NCBI GenBank assembly: GCA_018714845.1
Contig: DVMR01000050.1
Location: forward strand, 1 to 40,241
Reading direction: 5' to 3'
From: Candidatus Ventrousia excrementavium
Lineage (GTDB): Bacteria > Bacillota > Clostridia > Oscillospirales > Butyricicoccaceae
Length of the DNA stretch: 40,241 nt
Shown: one piece after another, positions 2,858-31,324 of the stretch
Layout of the letters: the number at the start of each line of letters is the position of its first letter
Numbering within the stretch: the stretch's first letter is position 1
The notes under the pieces: model-generated
Seen by the model: only the letters and a program-made list of their open reading frames with translations
Database searches by the model: none
What the model was told of the DNA's origin: nothing
Position numbers and translations under genes: made by a program

Positions 2858-4236
2858 TTGCCAAAAACCTCCGTCACAGCGGCGGCCAGCTCGTCGCTGT
2901 CGCCGGGCAGCAGCGTCCGCATATCAAGCAGCAGACGGTCGTGGGCAATGCGGCCGACAACGGGAACGTCCCGGCCGCGCAGGCGCTCGTCGAGCGCAGC
3001 GGCCGAAATCCGGGCGTCGTCAATGGCAACGCACCAGGTGGGCAGCAGGCGCGTCGGCACGCTGCCGCCCCCGACCTGACCGCTTTCGGGAACGCACTGG
3101 CAGCTGACGCCGCCGTCCTTCAGGCGGGCGCACAGCGCTTCGGCGCGGCCACGCAGCGCTTCTTCGGGCAGAGAGAGCATTTCAAGGATGGGGATGCGCA
3201 GATAGGGCTTTTCGCTGTCCTGATAAACGCGCAGCGTCGCCTCGAGCGCAGCCAGCGTCATTTTGTCGATACGCAACGCGCGCGTCAGCGGATTTTTCTT
3301 CATCTGGTCAATATACTGCTTTTTGCCGACGATAATGCCGGCCTGCGGACCGCCCAGCAGCTTGTCCCCGCTGAAGCAGACGACGTCGGCCCCCGACGCC
3401 ATGGCCTGCGCCACGGTGGGCTCGTCGCCCAGACCGGTGCGCTGCGGGTCGCACAAAGCACCCGAGCCCAGGTCATAGAGCATGGGCAGTCCGTGCTCGT
3501 GGGCCAGCCCGGCCAGTTCGGCGGCCGGGACCTCTTCTGTAAAGCCCAGGATGCGGTAATTGCTGGTGTGGACCTTCAAAATAGCGGCCGTCTGCTCGCC
3601 GATGGCAGAGACATAGTCCTGCGGATGGGTCTTGTTGGTGGTGCCGACCTCGCGCAGAAGGCCGCCGCTCATTTCCATGATTTCAGGCACGCGGAACGAA
3701 CCGCCGATTTCGACGAGCTCGCCGCGCGACACCACGGCCTCGCGGCCGCGGACCAGGGTGCTGAGCACCAGAAGCACGGCCGCGGCATTGTTGTTGACGA
3801 CCATGGCGCTTTCACAGCCGAGCAGGCTGCACAAAAGCGCGTCAACGTGGCTGTATCGGCTGCCGCGGCGGCCTGCCGCGGCGTCATATTCCAGGGTGTT
3901 GTACCGGCGGGCGACGTCTGCGGCGGCCTGCGCCGCCTCCTCGCACAGCGGAGCGCGGCCCAGGTTGGTGTGCAGCACCACGCCCGTGGCGTTGACAACG
4001 CGGCGCAGCGACGGGCGCTGTCCGCGTTCGAGCGCGTGCACGCAGCTTTGGGCGACAGCGTCGGGCGAGACATCAGGCTCTCCCCCGGCCAGAATGTCGC
4101 GCCGCAAATCGTCGATGGCAGCGCGGACATGAGCGGCCGCCAGGTCGTGGCCCCAGCGGTCAGCGGCGCTGCGCAGGGCAGTCAGGCGCAGGACTTCGTC
4201 AATCTGCGGCAGGCGCCGCAAAAGCTCTTTGTTCAT
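2854..4236 (-). CDS. selA: L-seryl-tRNA(Sec) selenium transferase SelA
   Basis: SelA is a PLP enzyme that converts Ser-tRNA-Sec to Sec-tRNA-Sec using selenophosphate. The 460 residues match the bacterial family length. The motif SGDKLLGGPQAG carries the probable PLP-binding lysine at residue 292. The conserved N-terminal stretch around VNATGVVLHTNLGRAPL (81-97) and the GTTNKTH segment (198-204) are also present. The ATG is preceded by an ideal AAGGAGG seven bases away. It is the first gene of the selAB unit and has its own promoter upstream. Confidence 0.97.
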   Translation of the reverse strand: MNKELLRRLPQIDEVLRLTALRSAADRWGHDLAAAHVRAAIDDLRRDILAGGEPDVSPDAVAQSCVHALERGQRPSLRRVVNATGVVLHTNLGRAPLCEEAAQAAADVARRYNTLEYDAAAGRRGSRYSHVDALLCSLLGCESAMVVNNNAAAVLLVLSTLVRGREAVVSRGELVEIGGSFRVPEIMEMSGGLLREVGTTNKTHPQDYVSAIGEQTAAILKVHTSNYRILGFTEEVPAAELAGLAHEHGLPMLYDLGSGALCDPQRTGLGDEPTVAQAMASGADVVCFSGDKLLGGPQAGIIVGKKQYIDQMKKNPLTRALRIDKMTLAALEATLRVYQDSEKPYLRIPILEMLSLPEEALRGRAEALCARLKDGGVSCQCVPESGQVGGGSVPTRLLPTWCVAIDDARISAAALDERLRGRDVPVVGRIAHDRLLLDMRTLLPGDSDELAAAVTEVFGK

Positions 4237-4280
4237 GGCGTTCCTCCTTGCTGCGGCGCCCGGCGCCGCCTGTGGTACCC

Positions 4281-4309
4281 ATTATACCCGTTTTTTCCAG
4301 CCTGCGCAA
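4281..4309 (-). promoter_or_regulatory. Promoter of selAB
   Basis: Perfect -10 TATAAT (4281-4286) with 17-bp spacing to a weak -35 TTGCGC (4304-4309) on the minus strand, about 45 bp before the selA start. Confidence 0.6.
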
Positions 4310-4336
4310 GGGTCTGCCCCGTGCGCGCGCAACAGA

Positions 4337-4359
4337 AAAGCGCCCTCACAGGGCGCTTT
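4337..4359 (-). terminator. Intrinsic terminator after the GNAT gene
   Basis: A perfect 9-bp stem AAAGCGCCC/GGGCGCTTT with a TGTGA loop, followed on the minus strand by TTTTCTGTT. It separates the XpaC/GNAT unit from the selA promoter. Confidence 0.75.
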
Positions 4360-4400
4360 GCATAAGAGTGCGGCTTTTGCCCATGCGTCAGGCGCACCGA

Positions 4401-4944
4401 TCACAGCTCGAGCCGCATATGGACCACTTCCTGAAAGCCGGACAGGCGTGAATAAAAGCCTTTGGGGTTTCTGCCGTATTCAACAAACCCCGCTTTTTTA
4501 TACATGGACAGCGCGCGCATTTTCGGCTACCGCATTGAGCTCGAGCTGGACATATCCCGCAGTCCTGGCACATTCGATGCACGCCGAAAGCAGCGCCGTT
4601 CCAATTCCCAGCCCCCAGTATTCCCGGGCAACGCTGATGCCGAACACGGCGCGATGCCGCACCTTGTATTTCGTGCCCGCCGCCGCGACCCCCGCACTCC
4701 CTGCGACCGCGCCGCCGACCACGGCGAGCATTTCAATTTCGTTTGGGCTTTCTTCTTTTGCCCGCAAAAGCCGGCCTTCCTGCGCCGCGTCAGCGCTGCC
4801 CTCGTCCGGGTAAGACAGCAGATAGTCGGTCTGCCCGTGCGTCAGGCGCCAAAGGTCGACGACCGCCTGGCCGTCGCTTTCCGTCCCGTTTCTCAGGCAG
4901 CATTCCCTGCCGTCTTTCAGCTTGACCGTTCTGTTGTACCGCAT
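4401..4944 (-). pseudogene. GNAT-family N-acetyltransferase, frameshifted near its C-terminus
   Basis: GNAT enzymes transfer acetyl groups from acetyl-CoA to amines; the substrate cannot be read here. From ATG 4944 (preceded by AAGGGG) the frame encodes a typical GNAT core, with the CoA-binding loop around REYWGLGIGTALL and the next helix/strand ending AVAENARA. At the run GCGCGCGC (4511-4518) the frame then hits a stop at 4498. Shifting by two bases restores the expected GNAT ending, with MYKKAGFVEYGR and a stop at 4401-4403. Loss of one GC unit from a GC repeat explains this exactly. It could be true inactivation, slippage-based on/off switching or an assembly error. It probably shares a transcript with the XpaC-like gene upstream. 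Confidence 0.75.
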
Positions 4945-26011: not shown

Positions 26012-27214
26012 TCAGCACTCCTTCTTGGTGTGGGGGTTCCGCTCGGCGTATGCGTTGGCGGAATCCGTGCAAATCTGCTCGTAAGTGGTTTGTCTGGTCT
26101 TGTCCGCGTTGGCCTTCGCGCTGTCCAGCGCAGCCGACGCAATGGTTTGCGTCATGTCATTGCCGCGCACAATCGACAGCAGCGCGTCGGTCACGCGGGC
26201 ACGCTCGCTCTTGTCCTTGATGCCGGCCACCGCCGGGCGCACCTTGCGCAAAAGCTCGACCGCGGCGTCTCTGGCAGGGCCCGCGGCGCAATCCTCGTTT
26301 TCGACCGGGATGGTCAGCGCCTTGCCGTCCTCTTTGCCCGCCAGCCTGTCAATCATCTCGTCGAGGTCGGTTTCGTCGTGCAGACGGTGCTCGCCCTCGC
26401 CGCCGCGGCTTCTGGCTGCGAGCATTTCGAGGATACGGTCGAGCTTCGAGCCGATGTCGTCGCCCTTCGGAGCCTTGATGACCATTTCGTCTTCGGCATC
26501 CTTCGCGGGTTCCGCTTCCTGCGCCTGTTCGGCGGGTTCAGCGTCCAGCGCGCCGGCGACCGTCGCCACGTCCTTTGTCAGCTGCTCCAGCTCTTCCGGC
26601 GCAGCGTCGTTTGCCGCCAGGCCGAAGAACCGATAGAGGGCCTCTTTGGTTTCCTTCTTCATTCGTTTCAGTCCTTTCTCCGCCTGTTCGGCGGCGTGGT
26701 CTTGTATTGCTACCTCGTGACCCGCCCTGCCCCTCGGCACAACGGCCACGTGATTGCCCCGGATGCGCTCCTGACGGTACCCTGCCCCGTCAGGCACATA
26801 ATTGCAGGTGTATCCGCAGGACACTTCGCGCTTGACGCCGTTCTGAATATCCGACGCCAGCGCCTTGTCGTTGATGTACAGGTCTGCGACAATGTAATCC
26901 CCCTCGCGCCGCACGTTCTGGACGTGCCCGCGGCTGTACGCCGCATAATTTTCAGGGCCGACGTTCTCGGGCGGGTGCCCGTCGGTCACCGGCTTGCCCT
27001 CGAAGCTCGCGAGTACGGCGGGCTCGAACACGTCTTCCGGCCTGCGGTCGACGACGACGGGCCGCTCGGGGTCGCCGTCCAGCATGAGCTCCCGCGCCGT
27101 GTACTCCTGCGCCCCTGTCCGCGCGATGGGCACGTTGCGGCAGACCAGATACCCCTCGACGGTCTCGGTCTTGTTGGGGCTGATGTCCGTGCCGTAGTAT
27201 GCAATGGGCATCAT
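26012..27214 (-). CDS. Prohead protease / scaffold fusion (DUF2213-type)
   Basis: 400 aa. Residues 1-170 form the protease domain, with FEGKPVTDGHPP, the KREVSCGYTCNY segment (candidate Ser132) and RGNHVAVVPRGRAG (candidate His155). Residues 185-400 are acidic and helical (LEQLTKDVATVAGALDAEPA onwards), as in scaffold proteins. A good internal start at ATG 26662 (M185; AAAGG ten bases before) could give a separate scaffold protein, as lambda Nu3 lies inside gene C. The gene precedes the cement and capsid genes, and its stop overlaps the next ribosome site. Confidence 0.8.
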   Translation of the reverse strand: MMPIAYYGTDISPNKTETVEGYLVCRNVPIARTGAQEYTARELMLDGDPERPVVVDRRPEDVFEPAVLASFEGKPVTDGHPPENVGPENYAAYSRGHVQNVRREGDYIVADLYINDKALASDIQNGVKREVSCGYTCNYVPDGAGYRQERIRGNHVAVVPRGRAGHEVAIQDHAAEQAEKGLKRMKKETKEALYRFFGLAANDAAPEELEQLTKDVATVAGALDAEPAEQAQEAEPAKDAEDEMVIKAPKGDDIGSKLDRILEMLAARSRGGEGEHRLHDETDLDEMIDRLAGKEDGKALTIPVENEDCAAGPARDAAVELLRKVRPAVAGIKDKSERARVTDALLSIVRGNDMTQTIASAALDSAKANADKTRQTTYEQICTDSANAYAERNPHTKKEC

Positions 27215-27444
27215 TCCACCCCCGGCACAAGCTCTTCCTGCCCGGCGCTTTCGCCGGCCACCGCCTCAAGCAGCAGGTCGGCGATAACGGCCTGATGGTC
27301 GGTCTCGTCGGCCTGAATCTCAAGCAGCCTGGGGATTGCGCTCTGCGGCGCCGCCGCCATCACGGCCAGATACAGCCGCACCGTTTCGGTCTCGCCCGCC
27401 AGCGAGCGTTTGAGCAGCTCGATGTATTCCGCGTTGTTGTCCAT
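27211..27444 (-). CDS. Small ferritin-like helical phage protein
   Basis: 77 aa from ATG 27444 (MDNNAEYIELLKRSLAGETE), with AAAGGATG six bases upstream. Two helices carry Glu18/Glu20 and an E-x2-H pair (Glu47, His50), the iron-ligand layout of ferritin-like proteins, though a full four-helix bundle would need dimers. It overlaps the protease gene by four bases and follows a strong hairpin. Its role in capsid assembly is unknown. Confidence 0.65.
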   Translation of the reverse strand: MDNNAEYIELLKRSLAGETETVRLYLAVMAAAPQSAIPRLLEIQADETDHQAVIADLLLEAVAGESAGQEELVPGVE

Positions 27445-27472
27445 GCAAATCATCCTTTCGGATTGAAATAAA

Positions 27473-27515
27473 AATGAGGTCAACTTGTCGGATTTTCCGA
27501 CAGGTTGACCTCATT
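27473..27515 (-). terminator. Strong hairpin, probable terminator inside the structural operon
   Basis: Arms of 20 bases (27473-27492 and 27496-27515) match except for one G-U-compatible position, with a 3-base loop. On the minus strand the stem is followed by TTTTATTTC. It would terminate or attenuate transcription between the minor head gene and the protease/capsid genes. Confidence 0.75.
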
Positions 27516-27556
27516 CGGCCCATCCCGGCGAGCATTCACGCCGTGGGAAGCAATAT

Positions 27557-27691
27557 TTACTTGAGCAGCTTGCGCGATATGACCTGTGCTTTGACGTTGC
27601 CGTCCTTGTCCTTGAGCAGCTCCACCCGCAGGCCCTTGTCCAGCGCCGCGAGAATGGATTTAATCAGTTCCGGCGTTATTGTTTGCGTCAC
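27557..27691 (-). CDS. Small protein overlapping the end of the minor head gene
   Basis: 44 aa, VTQTITPELIKSILAALDKG at the start and QVISRKLLK at the end. GTG 27691 is preceded by GGGAG at ten bases. It overlaps the last 32 bases of the minor head gene in another frame and ends 42 bases before the hairpin. It looks like a short helix-strand protein. I recognise no family; it is plausible as a real gene because of its site and codon pattern. Confidence 0.55.
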   Translation of the reverse strand: MTQTITPELIKSILAALDKGLRVELLKDKDGNVKAQVISRKLLK

Positions 27692-29801
27692 GGTACAGCC
27701 GCTCCCATGCCTTGTATTTGTCGTCATTGGCCTTTTTGTGCCGGTCGAACGTCTGGAACGTCCTGGGCACCTTATCCCCCAGCGTCATGCGGTAGCGTTC
27801 CCATTGGCGGTAGCTGGCAAGCCAGCGCCGACGCGCCGCCTCTTTCTTCCGGTACGCCTCTATCTGCTTGTCATCCCGCGGGTCGTGCGTCAGCGGGTTT
27901 TTCCGCGGGTCGGAAAAGTCCCGGATTTCACGGATTTCCTTTTCGCTCCGCCCCGCCGGCGTCCACGGAATTAAAGCATGTAGACAATTATGAGTAACTA
28001 TGTTATTATATGTATAGAACCCATGTTCTGTTTGTAAATTATAAACCTTACCACTGTATTGAGAGGTGCTGACATGAACAAGATTACTTACGACAAGAGC
28101 ATCCTGACAAAAGAGGCTTTGCAAACGCTCCGCAGCCAGAGGGTCACTTATGCGAAGATGGCGGAACATTTTGGCGTAACCGAATACACCATCAAGCGCG
28201 CTATGATTGACTATGGGATACTTGCACCAAAGCCGCCCAAAAAATTTCTTGACGTTGCTCCTGGTTACATTGAAGCTCGCTCCGATGAGTTTCAGCGGTT
28301 TCTTGAGCTTCATAATCAAGGGATGAGCTATACAGAAATCGCTGCCACTTGCGGAAAATCTCAATCCTATGTTGGCAAGCTGTTCACTCTGAATGGGTAC
28401 CGGTTTGATTCTGCTTATAAGACCAGAGCAGCACATAATGCTGTGCGCGGATCCAAAAGAACGATTGAAGACCTCGAAAAGCGCGCGCTTGGGAAAGAAA
28501 AAACGCCGCCTAAAATGAGCCGATGGGAAACAGTTTTTGCTGATTGGCTGACATCTCAAGGAATTGTTTTCACCTTTAGCAAGGCCTTTGGGAAGTACAA
28601 TTTTGACTTCGCTGTCGGGGATTCCGTCGCCGTGGAACTGTACGGCGGCGCCTTTCACGCTGATGGCAGAGCTGCCGCTCGTCTCAATGATAGAATGTCC
28701 TATATCCTCAATCGGGGTTGGAATATTTATATCATTTGGTGCCTCTCCAAAGAGGAAACGATATTTCCCGGCTGCCTCGATGATTTTATCTCCTTTTTGC
28801 AACATACCCGCAGCAATAAAGCCTTTCGTGGTCAGTATCGGGTGATTTGGAGTGACGGTGATTCTATTGCCATGGGAAGTTTCGAGCGTGACTACCGGGC
28901 CGCTGTATTCCCTGCTCGAATGCGCCACAACGCCCTCAGCAAGTACAAGCCCACCCGGGACTAAACAATTCGGATGTATATTCAGCCATGTATTTGCAAG
29001 ATTGTCCGGGCCGTTGGGGTCGACCTTGCCGAACGCCAGCGTCAGCGGCGGGAAGTCCGGGTCTGTGCCGCTGCGCGAATAGACCCGGCCCTCGAGCGGC
29101 GCGCAGATGCTGCACGTCGTTCCGTGGCTCGAAATCTGGTACAAGTCCTGCTCCGGGTCGGCGGTCAGCACGGCGGAAACCTCGGCCTGGCGCTGGGTCG
29201 TGCGCGACGCCATCGTGCAATAGGTATGCAGGCTCCAGTTTCGCCCCGCCTTGTCGGTAAAGGCCCTCACGCCCTCGCGCCGCAGCGCCTCGACAAACGC
29301 CGGCACCGACTGATTGACGCCCCGGCCTGCCGCGGCCTGTGCCGCCACCTGCTCAAGCCCCACCCTGCGGTAAACGTCCGGCTCGATGCGCCCGATAATG
29401 GCGCTCTGCACCGTCTCCATCGCCGTCATGCAGGCGTCGGTAATCTCGCCCATCAAGTTCATGGCCAGCCGGTCGACAATGGCGGTCTGCTCGCCCGTCA
29501 GGGCTGCGGCGTTGGCGTATCCGGCGGCGTGCTTCTGCACTGTCTCGCCCTCGATGCGCCGCGCCTCGGGCACGCGCACATAAAACTCGCGCTCAATCAT
29601 CCGGGGGACGTACTCCCAGCTGTCTGATTCCATTTTGCGCAAAATGGCCTGCACACGCTCAAGCGCCGCGACGGCGTGATAATCGACGTTACCCATGCTG
29701 CGCAGACGGCCGATCTCGTTGATGATGTCTGTTTCGGCCTTTAAAAATATGGCGATGAGCTTTTCAAGCTCCTTGGCGTTTGGCGCTCGTTTCAGCGGCA
29801 T
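27660..29801 (-). CDS. Minor head (SPP1 gp7 / Mu F-like) protein interrupted by an intein
   Basis: The 713-aa precursor has an N-extein (1-278), a 327-residue intein (279-605) and a C-extein (606-713). The exteins join NIHPN to CLHALIPWTP, recreating the conserved HPNC motif at the end of the Mu F / SPP1 gp7 head-morphogenesis domain. Extein features include TMASRTTQRQAEVSAVLTAD and ISSHGTTCSICAPLEGRVYS (230-233 Cys pair), which support that family. These proteins sit near the portal and are ejected with DNA or needed for infectivity. Spliced length is about 386 aa. The 3' end overlaps a 44-aa gene. Confidence 0.93.
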   Translation of the reverse strand: MPLKRAPNAKELEKLIAIFLKAETDIINEIGRLRSMGNVDYHAVAALERVQAILRKMESDSWEYVPRMIEREFYVRVPEARRIEGETVQKHAAGYANAAALTGEQTAIVDRLAMNLMGEITDACMTAMETVQSAIIGRIEPDVYRRVGLEQVAAQAAAGRGVNQSVPAFVEALRREGVRAFTDKAGRNWSLHTYCTMASRTTQRQAEVSAVLTADPEQDLYQISSHGTTCSICAPLEGRVYSRSGTDPDFPPLTLAFGKVDPNGPDNLANTWLNIHPNCLVPGGLVLAEGVVAHSSREYSGPVVTLETSHGNRITVTPNHPILTTKGFIAAGMLQKGDKIIEAAGKYRFLFGEAPNDINIPTPIEDIGHSIIETSGSSAISVKGAAVQFHGDGIPDSEVKIVLPKGLAKGENNSLRCQPISKNCFPSAHFRRRFFFPKRALFEVFNRSFGSAHSIMCCSGLISRIKPVPIQSEQLANIGLRFSASGSDFCIAHPLIMKLKKPLKLIGASFNVTRSNVKKFFGRLWCKYPIVNHSALDGVFGYAKMFRHLRISDPLAAERLQSLFCQDALVVSNLVHVSTSQYSGKVYNLQTEHGFYTYNNIVTHNCLHALIPWTPAGRSEKEIREIRDFSDPRKNPLTHDPRDDKQIEAYRKKEAARRRWLASYRQWERYRMTLGDKVPRTFQTFDRHKKANDDKYKAWERLYRDANNNAGTD
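27981..28009 (+). promoter_or_regulatory. Candidate promoter of the antisense endonuclease
   Basis: TAGACA (27981-27986), 17 bp, TATTAT (28004-28009), each one base from consensus. The -35 box overlaps the Cys606 codon of the extein and the -10 lies in intein block F/G DNA, so the promoter is completed by the insertion itself. Confidence 0.55.
27987..28967 (-). mobile_element. Intein within the minor head protein, containing an antisense endonuclease gene
   Basis: Intein residues 279-605. Block A starts with Cys279 (CLVPGG). Block B is GNRITVTPNHPILT with Thr317 and His320. Block F is SGKVYNLQTEHGFYTYNN (583-600) and block G is IVTHN with His604-Asn605, followed by Cys606. All catalytic residues for splicing are present. 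No LAGLIDADG or HNH domain is found in the sense frame: residues about 345-575 read as a non-descript stretch. The opposite strand in the same register is a full gene (28074-28964). The element is AT-richer than its surroundings (26 G/C of 60 at 28201-28260 against 44 of 60 at 29281-29340). Confidence 0.93.
28074..28964 (+). CDS. Homing-endonuclease-like protein encoded antisense inside the intein
   Basis: 296 aa from ATG 28074, preceded by GAGAGGTG at the right spacing (an in-frame TTG at 28059 is less likely). Domains are a helix-turn-helix at about 25-44 (TYAKMAEHFGVTEYTIKRAM), a second at about 85-104 (SYTEIAATCGKSQSYVGKLF), and a Vsr/PD-(D/E)XK-type nuclease domain at about 148-225. The last has candidate residues Glu152, Asp178, Glu188 and His195 (FDFAVGDSVAVELYGGAFH) followed by NRGWNIYIIW. 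This matches homing endonucleases of the Vsr-like group. The stop (28962-28964) directly abuts the intein's Cys1 codon. The frame is in codon register with the intein over 297 codons. It would cut the intein-free minor head allele to spread the element; that role is inferred. Confidence 0.85.
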   Translation: MNKITYDKSILTKEALQTLRSQRVTYAKMAEHFGVTEYTIKRAMIDYGILAPKPPKKFLDVAPGYIEARSDEFQRFLELHNQGMSYTEIAATCGKSQSYVGKLFTLNGYRFDSAYKTRAAHNAVRGSKRTIEDLEKRALGKEKTPPKMSRWETVFADWLTSQGIVFTFSKAFGKYNFDFAVGDSVAVELYGGAFHADGRAAARLNDRMSYILNRGWNIYIIWCLSKEETIFPGCLDDFISFLQHTRSNKAFRGQYRVIWSDGDSIAMGSFERDYRAAVFPARMRHNALSKYKPTRD

Positions 29802-29925
29802 GTGTAAGCCCTGCCTTTTGCATGATTCGATCGGCTTCTTTGCGTTCTGCGTCGACGCGCGGATCGTATTCTATGGCGCATGTAATTTCATGATCGCCCA
29901 GTTTATGTTTAAACTCCACTTTCAT
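29764..29925 (-). CDS. Small phage protein between portal and minor head genes
   Basis: 53 aa from ATG 29925 (MKVEFKHKLGDHEITCAIEY), with GGAG nine bases before it. It overlaps the portal stop and the minor head start, the tight packing expected of a true late gene. It is mixed charged and probably a single small domain. No family recognised. Confidence 0.65.
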   Translation of the reverse strand: MKVEFKHKLGDHEITCAIEYDPRVDAERKEADRIMQKAGLTHAAETSAKRQGA

Positions 29926-31324
29926 TTGAAACGTCTCCAAACCCAAGCCCCGCCAGCGGGTCGCGTAAGGCCGTTACATCCTGATAGGTTTTCCCGGCGT
30001 TTCGGGCAATCTCCTCATCTGTGATGCTGCCGAACATGCCCGTCTCGTCCGACAGCTTTTTCAGCTCTTTCTGCGCCGTGTCGACCTGCAAAAGCCCGGC
30101 CTGATACCCCGTGACAACGGCCTCGGCCTTGACTTTGGCGATGTCAGCCAGCTCTTTTGCCGTCGGCGTCCACAGCGGCGGGAAGACAAAGTCCAAATCG
30201 TCCGGAATCCCGCCCCATGCGCTCATCGCCAGCACGGGCAGCAGCTTCTGGATAGCCGGGCGCAGCTTGCTCTCACGCTGGCTGTCCACATAATCATAGT
30301 AATTGCGCAGGTCGCTCTCTCCCGTGGCGTTGAGCCCGCCCGGCGAACGCCCGAACAGCCGCGTCATCGGGTAATGCGACGCGCCGCACAGGTTGAGGCA
30401 CATGCTCTCGTATACGTCCTGCAAGCCCTCAAAGCTGTACTGCTGATTGGTCAGCTTGGTGCCCTGCTCGACGACCTGCATCCCGAAGTTCGAGCGCAGC
30501 ACGCTCTGCGCCTGCATGACGCTCCAGAACCGGCGCTGCACCGCGGGCGACGCCACGCTCAGCAGCTGTTCGACGCCCTTGTACTCCATTGTATTGATGT
30601 TTGCCTGGAAGGTCAGGGCCGCCATGTTTGCGCTGACGTTGTCGTGCGCCACAACGTCCTTGTACAGCGCCTCAATCTCGCTCTCGCCCCAGTACATCTC
30701 GGCCACGCGCTCGAGATACGGCAAATCGCGGCCCGTAAACCGCACGACCCGCGAATGATGCACGTCGACGACGGTGTGCCCCAGCGCGTCGGTGATGGAG
30801 TAAGTGTCCGGCACCGGCTCGCCGCCCTCGAACACCAGCCGCATGTTGGGGACTACCCCCTGCCAGCGGTCGAGGATGTACAGGCCCTGGAACGCGCCCG
30901 GATACACCATGCCAAGGTCGAGCGGCTGCGACAGGTCTTCCTGCCCGTCTATCATGATGAGCCCGGCAGCGCCGCCGTACAGCCGCCCCCAGCGCAGGCC
31001 CTCGGCCAGACGCTCGCGCAGCCGTGTTTTGCGCTCCACGCGCTCCAGCGCGTCCCGCATCTCGGGCGTAATGCCCTTGACGTCGCACCACTCGCGCAGC
31101 ATGTCGTCGACCATCAGCCCCACGACGTTCTGCACGACCCAGTTGTCCCGGTACAGGGAATTGAGCAAGGCGTAATTGTCCGTCATGCGCGTCAGCGGGT
31201 ACTCGGTCGCCTCAAGCGGCGACTGGCTCCCCCATCCCAGCCGGTACAGCGGATTGCTGAACGCATCCTGCACGGCTACGGCCTCGGCGGTATTCAGCTG
31301 TTGTGCCTTTTTACGTCTGGACAT
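29909..31324 (-). CDS. Portal protein (DUF1073-type)
   Basis: 471 aa from ATG 31324 (MSRRKKAQQLNTAEAVAV). Features of DUF1073/anti-CBASS-associated portal proteins include EYPLTRMTDNYALLNSLYRD, VVQNVVGLMVDDMLREWCDV, GGAAGLIMIDGQEDLSQPL and PMTRLFGRSPGGLNATGESD. It forms the ring for DNA entry and exit. Its ATG shares one base with the terminase stop (TAATG), so the longer frame upstream, which runs inside terL, is rejected. Confidence 0.92.
   Translation of the reverse strand: MSRRKKAQQLNTAEAVAVQDAFSNPLYRLGWGSQSPLEATEYPLTRMTDNYALLNSLYRDNWVVQNVVGLMVDDMLREWCDVKGITPEMRDALERVERKTRLRERLAEGLRWGRLYGGAAGLIMIDGQEDLSQPLDLGMVYPGAFQGLYILDRWQGVVPNMRLVFEGGEPVPDTYSITDALGHTVVDVHHSRVVRFTGRDLPYLERVAEMYWGESEIEALYKDVVAHDNVSANMAALTFQANINTMEYKGVEQLLSVASPAVQRRFWSVMQAQSVLRSNFGMQVVEQGTKLTNQQYSFEGLQDVYESMCLNLCGASHYPMTRLFGRSPGGLNATGESDLRNYYDYVDSQRESKLRPAIQKLLPVLAMSAWGGIPDDLDFVFPPLWTPTAKELADIAKVKAEAVVTGYQAGLLQVDTAQKELKKLSDETGMFGSITDEEIARNAGKTYQDVTALRDPLAGLGFGDVSNESGV

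Follow-up and report, generated by a model that had tools for sequence, protein, structure and literature searches.

Can a single stretch of DNA encode a splicing intein on one strand and, on the other, the endonuclease that spreads it? The question is raised by a 40,241-nucleotide stretch (the window, one contig of its assembly: DVMR01000050.1 of Candidatus Ventrousia excrementavium), in which a phage minor head gene on the minus strand is interrupted in frame by an intein whose opposite strand is itself open for 296 codons. Our answer, to which we assign a probability of roughly 0.87, is that the locus is a two-sided mobile intein: a splicing intein on one strand and, on the other, a selected protein with helix-turn-helix (HTH) units and a Vsr-like domain, the predicted homing endonuclease. 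The basis for this reading lies in the sequence, namely in the containment of one gene within the other, the facing of their codons, selection on the antisense protein, its kinship with Vsr, a gene start built from intein blocks F and G, empty alleles of the head gene and transfer of the intein between diverged ones.

An intein and the gene opposite it

The host gene is a MuF-like minor head gene (27660..29801, minus strand), an open reading frame (ORF) of 713 aa with matches to Phage_min_cap2 (63 bits) and to the minor head protein family phrog_581 (159 bits), adjoined by portal and terminase genes. Its N-extein (28968-29801, minus) and C-extein (27660-27986, minus) flank an in-frame intein of 327 aa or 981 bases (27987..28967, minus; ORF residues 279-605), which runs from Cys1 (codon 28965-28967, minus) to the terminal Asn327 (27987-27989, minus) and is followed by Cys+1 (27984-27986, minus). 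The Pfam family Intein_splicing (PF14890) matches with 42.8 bits against a cut-off of 35.8, and the splicing residues are intact; block B reads TPNHPILTTKG (28821..28853, minus), block F YSGKVYNLQT (28029..28058, minus) and block G, with the splicing His-Asn, YNNIVTHN (27987..28010, minus). An earlier note on this DNA had proposed a complete intein at this place, and this is borne out; judged from the intact motifs, the intein is predicted to be able to splice. Among relatives (alignments A4 and A5 with 71 loci each; A6 with 68, loci L074, L096 and L098 of the 71 being left out; A3 with 75 rows, 55 of them with DNA), Intein_splicing is found at E<=0.001 in 65 of the 68 inteins of A6, across which C1, T39, H42 and N327 are invariant, and the terminal Asn is followed by Cys+1 in 69 of 71 loci. 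A structural model of the window's intein has confident HINT ends, with solved inteins as its best Foldseek matches. An Rfam scan of 27000-30000 brought up no intron family at E<=1, and the layout is not that of a split intein, the ORF being contiguous and the nuclease gene overlapping it on the other strand.

That gene (28074..28964, plus), a predicted endonuclease gene with an ATG, 296 codons and a TAA, lies wholly within the intein, as the earlier note had it, and faces ORF residues 281-576 with the codons of both genes exactly face to face. Its stop pairs with the TTA of intein codon 2 (Leu) and adjoins Cys1. The two HTH units and the Vsr-like nuclease core that had been claimed for its product were recovered by family search and modelling: unit 1 takes up residues 13-46 (28110..28211, plus; predicted helices 13-21, 26-33 and 37-46), its VIA matches being DNA-binding domains, and unit 2 residues 70-106 (28281..28391, plus), where HTH_23 matches across residues 75-100 with 26.4 bits, above the Pfam cut-off. 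The Vsr/EDxHD-like nuclease domain occupies residues 146-268 (28509..28877, plus); in the window's copy the nuclease family MTES_1575 reaches 22.5 bits (E 1.2e-4), under its cut-off of 38.2. E152, Y175, D178, E188, H195 and G215 are kept in 71-75 of the 75 alignment rows, and E152, D178, E188 and H195, conserved in this order, are candidates for the E-D-x-H-D active-site residues. A model of the 296-aa protein with a predicted local distance difference test (pLDDT) score of 88 has Vsr and the homing endonuclease I-Bth0305I as its best structural matches in the PDB, which suggests a Vsr-like catalytic fold; a PDB search by sequence was uninformative. Protein homologues number 52 at E<=0.001, the full-length ones being 49-97% identical. 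One of them, P0033, carries the source name 'very-short-patch-repair endonuclease/transposase', the gene caller evidently having chosen the antisense strand. We predict from these features that the antisense product is the intein's homing endonuclease.

Selection on the antisense strand

A frame opposite a conserved intein gene could be the mere shadow of that gene, without a protein product, all the more as stops reach a face-to-face frame from TTA, CTA and TCA only. Facing the gene, none of the 53 Leu and Ser codons is of this antisense-stop kind, against 4 in 42 for the exteins of the same ORF; pooled over 71 loci the counts are 8 of 2795 and 541 of 4060, the loci having been picked by nuclease match, a choice favouring open antisense frames. 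Homologous inteins whose opposite strand is full of stops would have counted against the gene; the relatives fetched are not stop-filled. Since GC content is 47% in the intein and 60% in the window (63% and 59% in the exteins), the open antisense frame is no GC effect.

Substitutions tell the two codes apart, as sense codon position 1 is antisense position 3 in this register. Comparing the window with locus L010 gives per-site differences (sense positions 1/2/3) of 0.22/0.14/0.55 for the N-extein and 0.24/0.10/0.31 for blocks F/G, as against 0.43/0.08/0.21 for the nuclease zone and 0.57/0.12/0.24 for the HTH zone. Across the nuclease zone (55 sequences) antisense-3 is the free codon position in 259 of 262 pairs, and in the exteins it is sense-3 in 230 of 245, while the HTH zone follows the antisense pattern in only 71 of 110 pairs, distant pairs included; the pairs are not independent of each other. 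Synonymous constraint, measured in both frames as the earlier note had proposed, follows the antisense code in the nuclease zone and the sense code in the exteins. When codons were shuffled synonymously so as to keep the intein protein, the mean nuclease score fell from 301 to about 100 bits, and the real score beat every shuffle in 71 of 71 loci, the profile being partly built from these loci. As shuffles lose two thirds of the score, about one third of the apparent conservation would be shadow and about two thirds selection for the antisense protein.

The roughly 100 bits that shuffled inteins of the same sense protein retain against the antisense profile are thus what a shadow can offer, together with the scores of unrelated inteins: our controls, the best-scoring 30 inteins from 398 genomes of the same phylum (near-duplicates included), reach at most 18 bits against the nuclease profile in the region facing block B, where two of the 30 have E<0.001. 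A shadow does not explain the flip in codon position, the codons chosen contrary to extein usage at start and promoter (see below) or the matches to Pfam nuclease and HTH families that are independent in the sense of not having been built from these loci. We rejected it on the flip, the shuffles and the weak control scores, and consider it very improbable; judged by these substitution patterns, the antisense protein is under selection.

At one place, sense F-H-G-D and antisense V-A-V-E are written on the same 12 bases (28626..28637, both strands). Divergence at antisense fourfold third bases is 0.00-0.04 at V185, A186 and V187, 0.29 over residues 185-193, 0.65 over residues 1-119, and 0.21 opposite block B, the complement of which is part of the nuclease C-terminal region and where both strands diverge little. 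Tight two-way coding is thus confined to blocks A/B and sense FHGD. The overlap with splicing blocks A and B that had been claimed holds; most of the insert facing the HTH half is disordered in the model (intein residues 129-258, opposite the HTH half and linker, lie mostly at pLDDT <50).

A conserved sense segment at intein residues 76-125 (28593-28742) ends near FHGD, is modelled at pLDDT ~70-90 and could not be assigned a splicing role. One might see in it, and in the constraint on FHGD on the sense strand too, signs that the function lies in the sense insert from block B to block F, as an endonuclease or some other folded domain, with the antisense frame a by-product. Given the low confidence over residues 129-258, the substitutions there, which follow the antisense code, and a search of the 68 inteins at E<=0.001 that found no nuclease family and Intein_splicing as the sole Pfam family, we find this scarcely credible.

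The start, promoter and stop of the antisense gene

In the window a ribosome-binding site, GAGAGGTG (28061-28068, plus), lies 5 nt before the ATG, as expected from the earlier note, and a candidate promoter, TAGACA-17-TATTAT with TG before the -10 (27981..28009, plus), falls on block G and the first C-extein codons. A candidate promoter, too, had been noted; this one has 10 of 12 matches, but three such sites in 1.4 kb compare with a shuffled mean of 1.4 (standard deviation 1.2). Opposite the -10, all 8 members of the window's clade keep the codons TAT, AAT and ATA, and 7 of the 8 keep AAC.

Relatives present a clearer picture. Block F in most of them reads G-H-V-Y-N-L-Q, the complement of which is TTGGAGGTT-spacer-ATG, so H-V-Y-N-L-Q, on the reading of its bases, doubles as antisense Shine-Dalgarno sequence and start codon. 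His is present in 90 of 111 distinct inteins (regions kept from 151 loci), written CAT (ATG) in 76 and CAC (GTG) in 14, with CAT at 38% in exteins, and Leu is CTC in 74 of 87 against 27% in exteins. Block G, I-I-T-H-N in its commonest codons, is the complement of TGTTATAAT. Among 112 distinct inteins an exact TATAAT at one register was counted in 27 (2.3 expected by synonymous resampling, maximum 7), at least five of its six bases in 51 (17.7 expected, maximum 28) and the TG of an extended -10 in 47 (12.5 expected, maximum 23). Synonymous codon choice thus suggests that block G doubles as an extended -10 promoter in relatives. Among 18 of the 30 control inteins (the other 12 were left out, their C-end being unrecognised) none has the block-F His, an exact TATAAT or the TG; four have 5 of 6 -10 bases and one has a Shine-Dalgarno word. 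At the far end, the antisense stop lies within the intein in 67 of 71 distinct inteins, and Leu at intein codon 2 is TTA or CTA in 16 of 20 against 14% in exteins.

The window's own clade has lost the block-F His (Lys in the window) and shows free choice of the Leu codon; 8 members have in common a new GGAGG-like site with an ATG, 27 nt further in than in most relatives. The family may then be as described and the window's own copy inactive or unexpressed, a view that the missing block-F start and the weak promoter candidate would support. This copy nevertheless has an open frame and the near-invariant residues, its ribosome-binding site and start are those of all 8 clade members, and purifying selection is seen within the clade, which makes an inactive copy rather unlikely.

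Distribution among phage head genes

How widespread is the two-strand layout? Three scans of viral contigs and one of genomes were made, and the loci that they yielded overlap between sets, with some duplicates (L010 and L090, for instance, are the same contig). The antisense protein as a single sequence found no relative in viral contigs; a profile from alignment A1 found 276, of which 80 were kept, and the genome scan added 9. In 89 of 89 loci kept in this nuclease-led set an unbroken sense ORF runs opposite in face-to-face register, and the antisense match is without stops in 82 of them. An intein-led scan (<=600 stretches; 80 kept of 518) gave the same layout from the other side, the best nuclease-profile frame being antisense and face-to-face in 80 of 80, at 92-376 bits, with a stop-free best stretch in 74 of 80; 45 of its loci, all with 60 or more N-extein codons, added new sequences. 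From a scan for distant members 80 of 290 were kept, the sense frame being open in 80 and the antisense frame in 57. Antisense stops beside an open sense frame, as in some copies, would fit endonuclease loss after fixation. Free-standing nuclease relatives in viral contigs were not seen among the loci kept in the three scans.

With tblastn, the antisense protein matches 116 phage records at E<=1e-5, phages of Salmonella, Gordonia, Pseudomonas, Klebsiella, Escherichia, Vibrio and others, including KMB36 and Snoke. Eleven records were opened (nine phages and two plasmid records), and in each the match runs antisense to a coding sequence, called a head or capsid protein in seven and 'hypothetical' in four; the full antisense gene is annotated in none of the eleven, the gene tables of the two plasmids being incomplete. 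In Rhodococcus phage REQ3 the antisense match holds a stop, and in Salmonella phage sam a partial plus-strand 'hypothetical protein' is annotated at it. Records H94 and H51 (Salmonella phage NBSal007) label the intein-bearing head protein an NAD+-asparagine ADP-ribosyltransferase, probably a misannotation.

The host genes, tallied by N-extein for the 71 and 45 further loci, belong to minor head, MuF, head-protease and portal families, with the intein mostly at HPN|C; when other host genes were sought, single N-exteins also matched 2'-5' RNA ligase or NUDIX, the tallies not being per member. Intact or decaying, the layout is common to all related phage inteins checked. The earlier note had suspected a general design for phage inteins; this stands for one intein family in MuF/minor-head proteins and not for inteins at large, where the layout is not shown and the control inteins are without it. 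Within the window's family the gene was found in 1 of 87 genomes, the window's own.

Outside phages, bacterial proteins with a weakly related nuclease domain score at most 42 bits, and among the 74 of 398 genome matches most span the HTH part only. The weak nuclease-profile matches L225-L236 fall within long ORFs of bacteria, nine with 1095-1784 aa and one with 584, and within a short pair of 160 and 187 aa; the nuclease domain may have cellular relatives here. In L089 the antisense nuclease frame is open for 1335 codons through 4001-4450, far past the intein.

Mobility and a role in homing

Ten related head genes from viral contigs, 65-83% identical (some near-identical mutually), are empty at the exact NI/LHPN|C junction, in 10 of 10 cases. 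The head of Salmonella phage BPS11Q3 as query has 620 matches in phage records, 75 of which cover at least 80% of it; among the 60 rows listed, 37 match in two pieces with no intein, at 70-96% identity, one of them from a phage of E. coli K-12. Compared with its counterpart in E. coli phage GZMU_E2010, the BPS11Q3 intein has 43 differences in 816 bases and the exteins have 284 in 1041, so an intein 95% identical sits inside exteins 27% diverged. L054 likewise shares 55% of the nuclease stretch with the window and only 26% of the N-extein. In a metagenome study, a minor-head intein is described as a variable island (PMC7468147). The identities above suggest that the intein has moved between diverged head genes.

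A real antisense protein might all the same serve another purpose, as a DNA-binding regulator or as a nuclease against competing phage DNA. PHROGs matches of its HTH half are largely regulators and DNA-binding proteins, its catalytic residues are putative, and a nuclease against intein-free head genes would harm rivals too. Yet Vsr and a homing endonuclease are among the top structural matches, and the gene's location within an intein, the empty alleles and the transfer between diverged exteins speak for homing. Hence a non-homing purpose seems to us decidedly unlikely, and we favour the two-sided mobile intein. Its antisense transcript would start from the block-G promoter inside the intein; the HTH units may bind around HPN|C in a head gene that lacks the intein, the Vsr-like domain would cut that gene in a co-infecting phage, repair would copy the intein in from the filled allele, and splicing would then restore a working head protein. 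Placing the endonuclease on the intein's reverse strand would allow its production without head-gene expression.

Taken more broadly, it is probable in our view that these elements form a new class of mobile element, the Janus intein, of about 1 kb, in which a splicing element and, on the reverse strand, a self-contained endonuclease gene share the DNA; it would be widespread among MuF-type head genes of tailed phages. Its motifs would do double duty: block G as an extended -10, block F as Shine-Dalgarno sequence and start, FHGD as a catalytic strand, block B as part of the nuclease C-terminal region, and codon 2 as a possible stop. Late head-gene transcription would run against the antisense promoter, and the endonuclease may thus be made early and be off late.

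Relation to known systems

The closest Vsr-like/EDxHD homing endonucleases are I-Bth0305I and the enzymes that Dassa et al. reportedly described in 2009 beside fractured genes with split inteins; their genes are carried by a group I intron or stand alone between the two halves of a split intein. The antisense protein resembles I-Bth0305I and the split-intein-associated enzymes in its catalytic fold and in having DNA-binding units joined to the nuclease; unlike those genes, its own overlaps a contiguous intein on the other strand. In mobile inteins of the PI-SceI type the endonuclease is an in-frame fusion with the intein (PMC3943268). Common to both are the precise in-gene insertion, the empty alleles and an endonuclease, here a predicted one, that travels along; here, however, it is a separate protein from the opposite strand, and the sense polypeptide has no nuclease domain between B and F.

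The earlier note took an endonuclease encoded antisense to a splicing domain to be undescribed. For inteins this agrees with the open-licence full-text literature of PubMed Central, where no intein with an antisense endonuclease gene was found among the matches listed; it does not hold for splicing elements in general. Antisense homing endonuclease genes are reported in nuclear group I introns (PMC3679873), and I-DsqI from the nuclear group I intron L2066 of Didymium is one that is expressed and active (PMC9548176). The idea thus has precedent outside inteins: the endonuclease gene is likewise antisense to the splicing element, but the intron case has a His-Cys box enzyme, a self-splicing RNA and protist rDNA as its setting and is without two-way protein coding. 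Inteins in the minor head or capsid gene are described for E. coli phage KMB36 (PMC11162368) and, in the minor head gene, for cryophage AB09 (PMC7468147); these and that of Snoke share the kind of host gene, and the intein alone is reported in the portions concerned. The antisense gene is annotated in neither the Snoke nor the KMB36 stretch examined. As far as that literature shows, parts of known kinds have come together in an arrangement new for an intein.

If the reading is confirmed, the homing endonucleases of these inteins would have gone unnoticed because annotators went no further than the head gene. The family would then offer many natural examples of protein genes that overlap on opposite strands, where the selection acting on either strand is legible at each base, and a testable answer to how an intein may spread without tying endonuclease production to its host gene. 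As E. coli phages with and without the element exist, crosses are feasible in laboratory strains.

Neighbouring features

The head gene belongs to a minus-strand run of terminase, portal, minor head and head-protease genes. Opposite the head protease, 26030-27295 (plus) holds a 421-aa open frame that may be a mere GC-rich shadow. Directly after the head gene, at 27458-27528, an apparent inverted repeat lets ORFs on both strands begin near-identically (MRSTCR..RQVDL); Rfam gave one match to it, a chance-level miRNA hairpin (E 0.037, far under cut-off), and the repeat is possibly a terminator hairpin.
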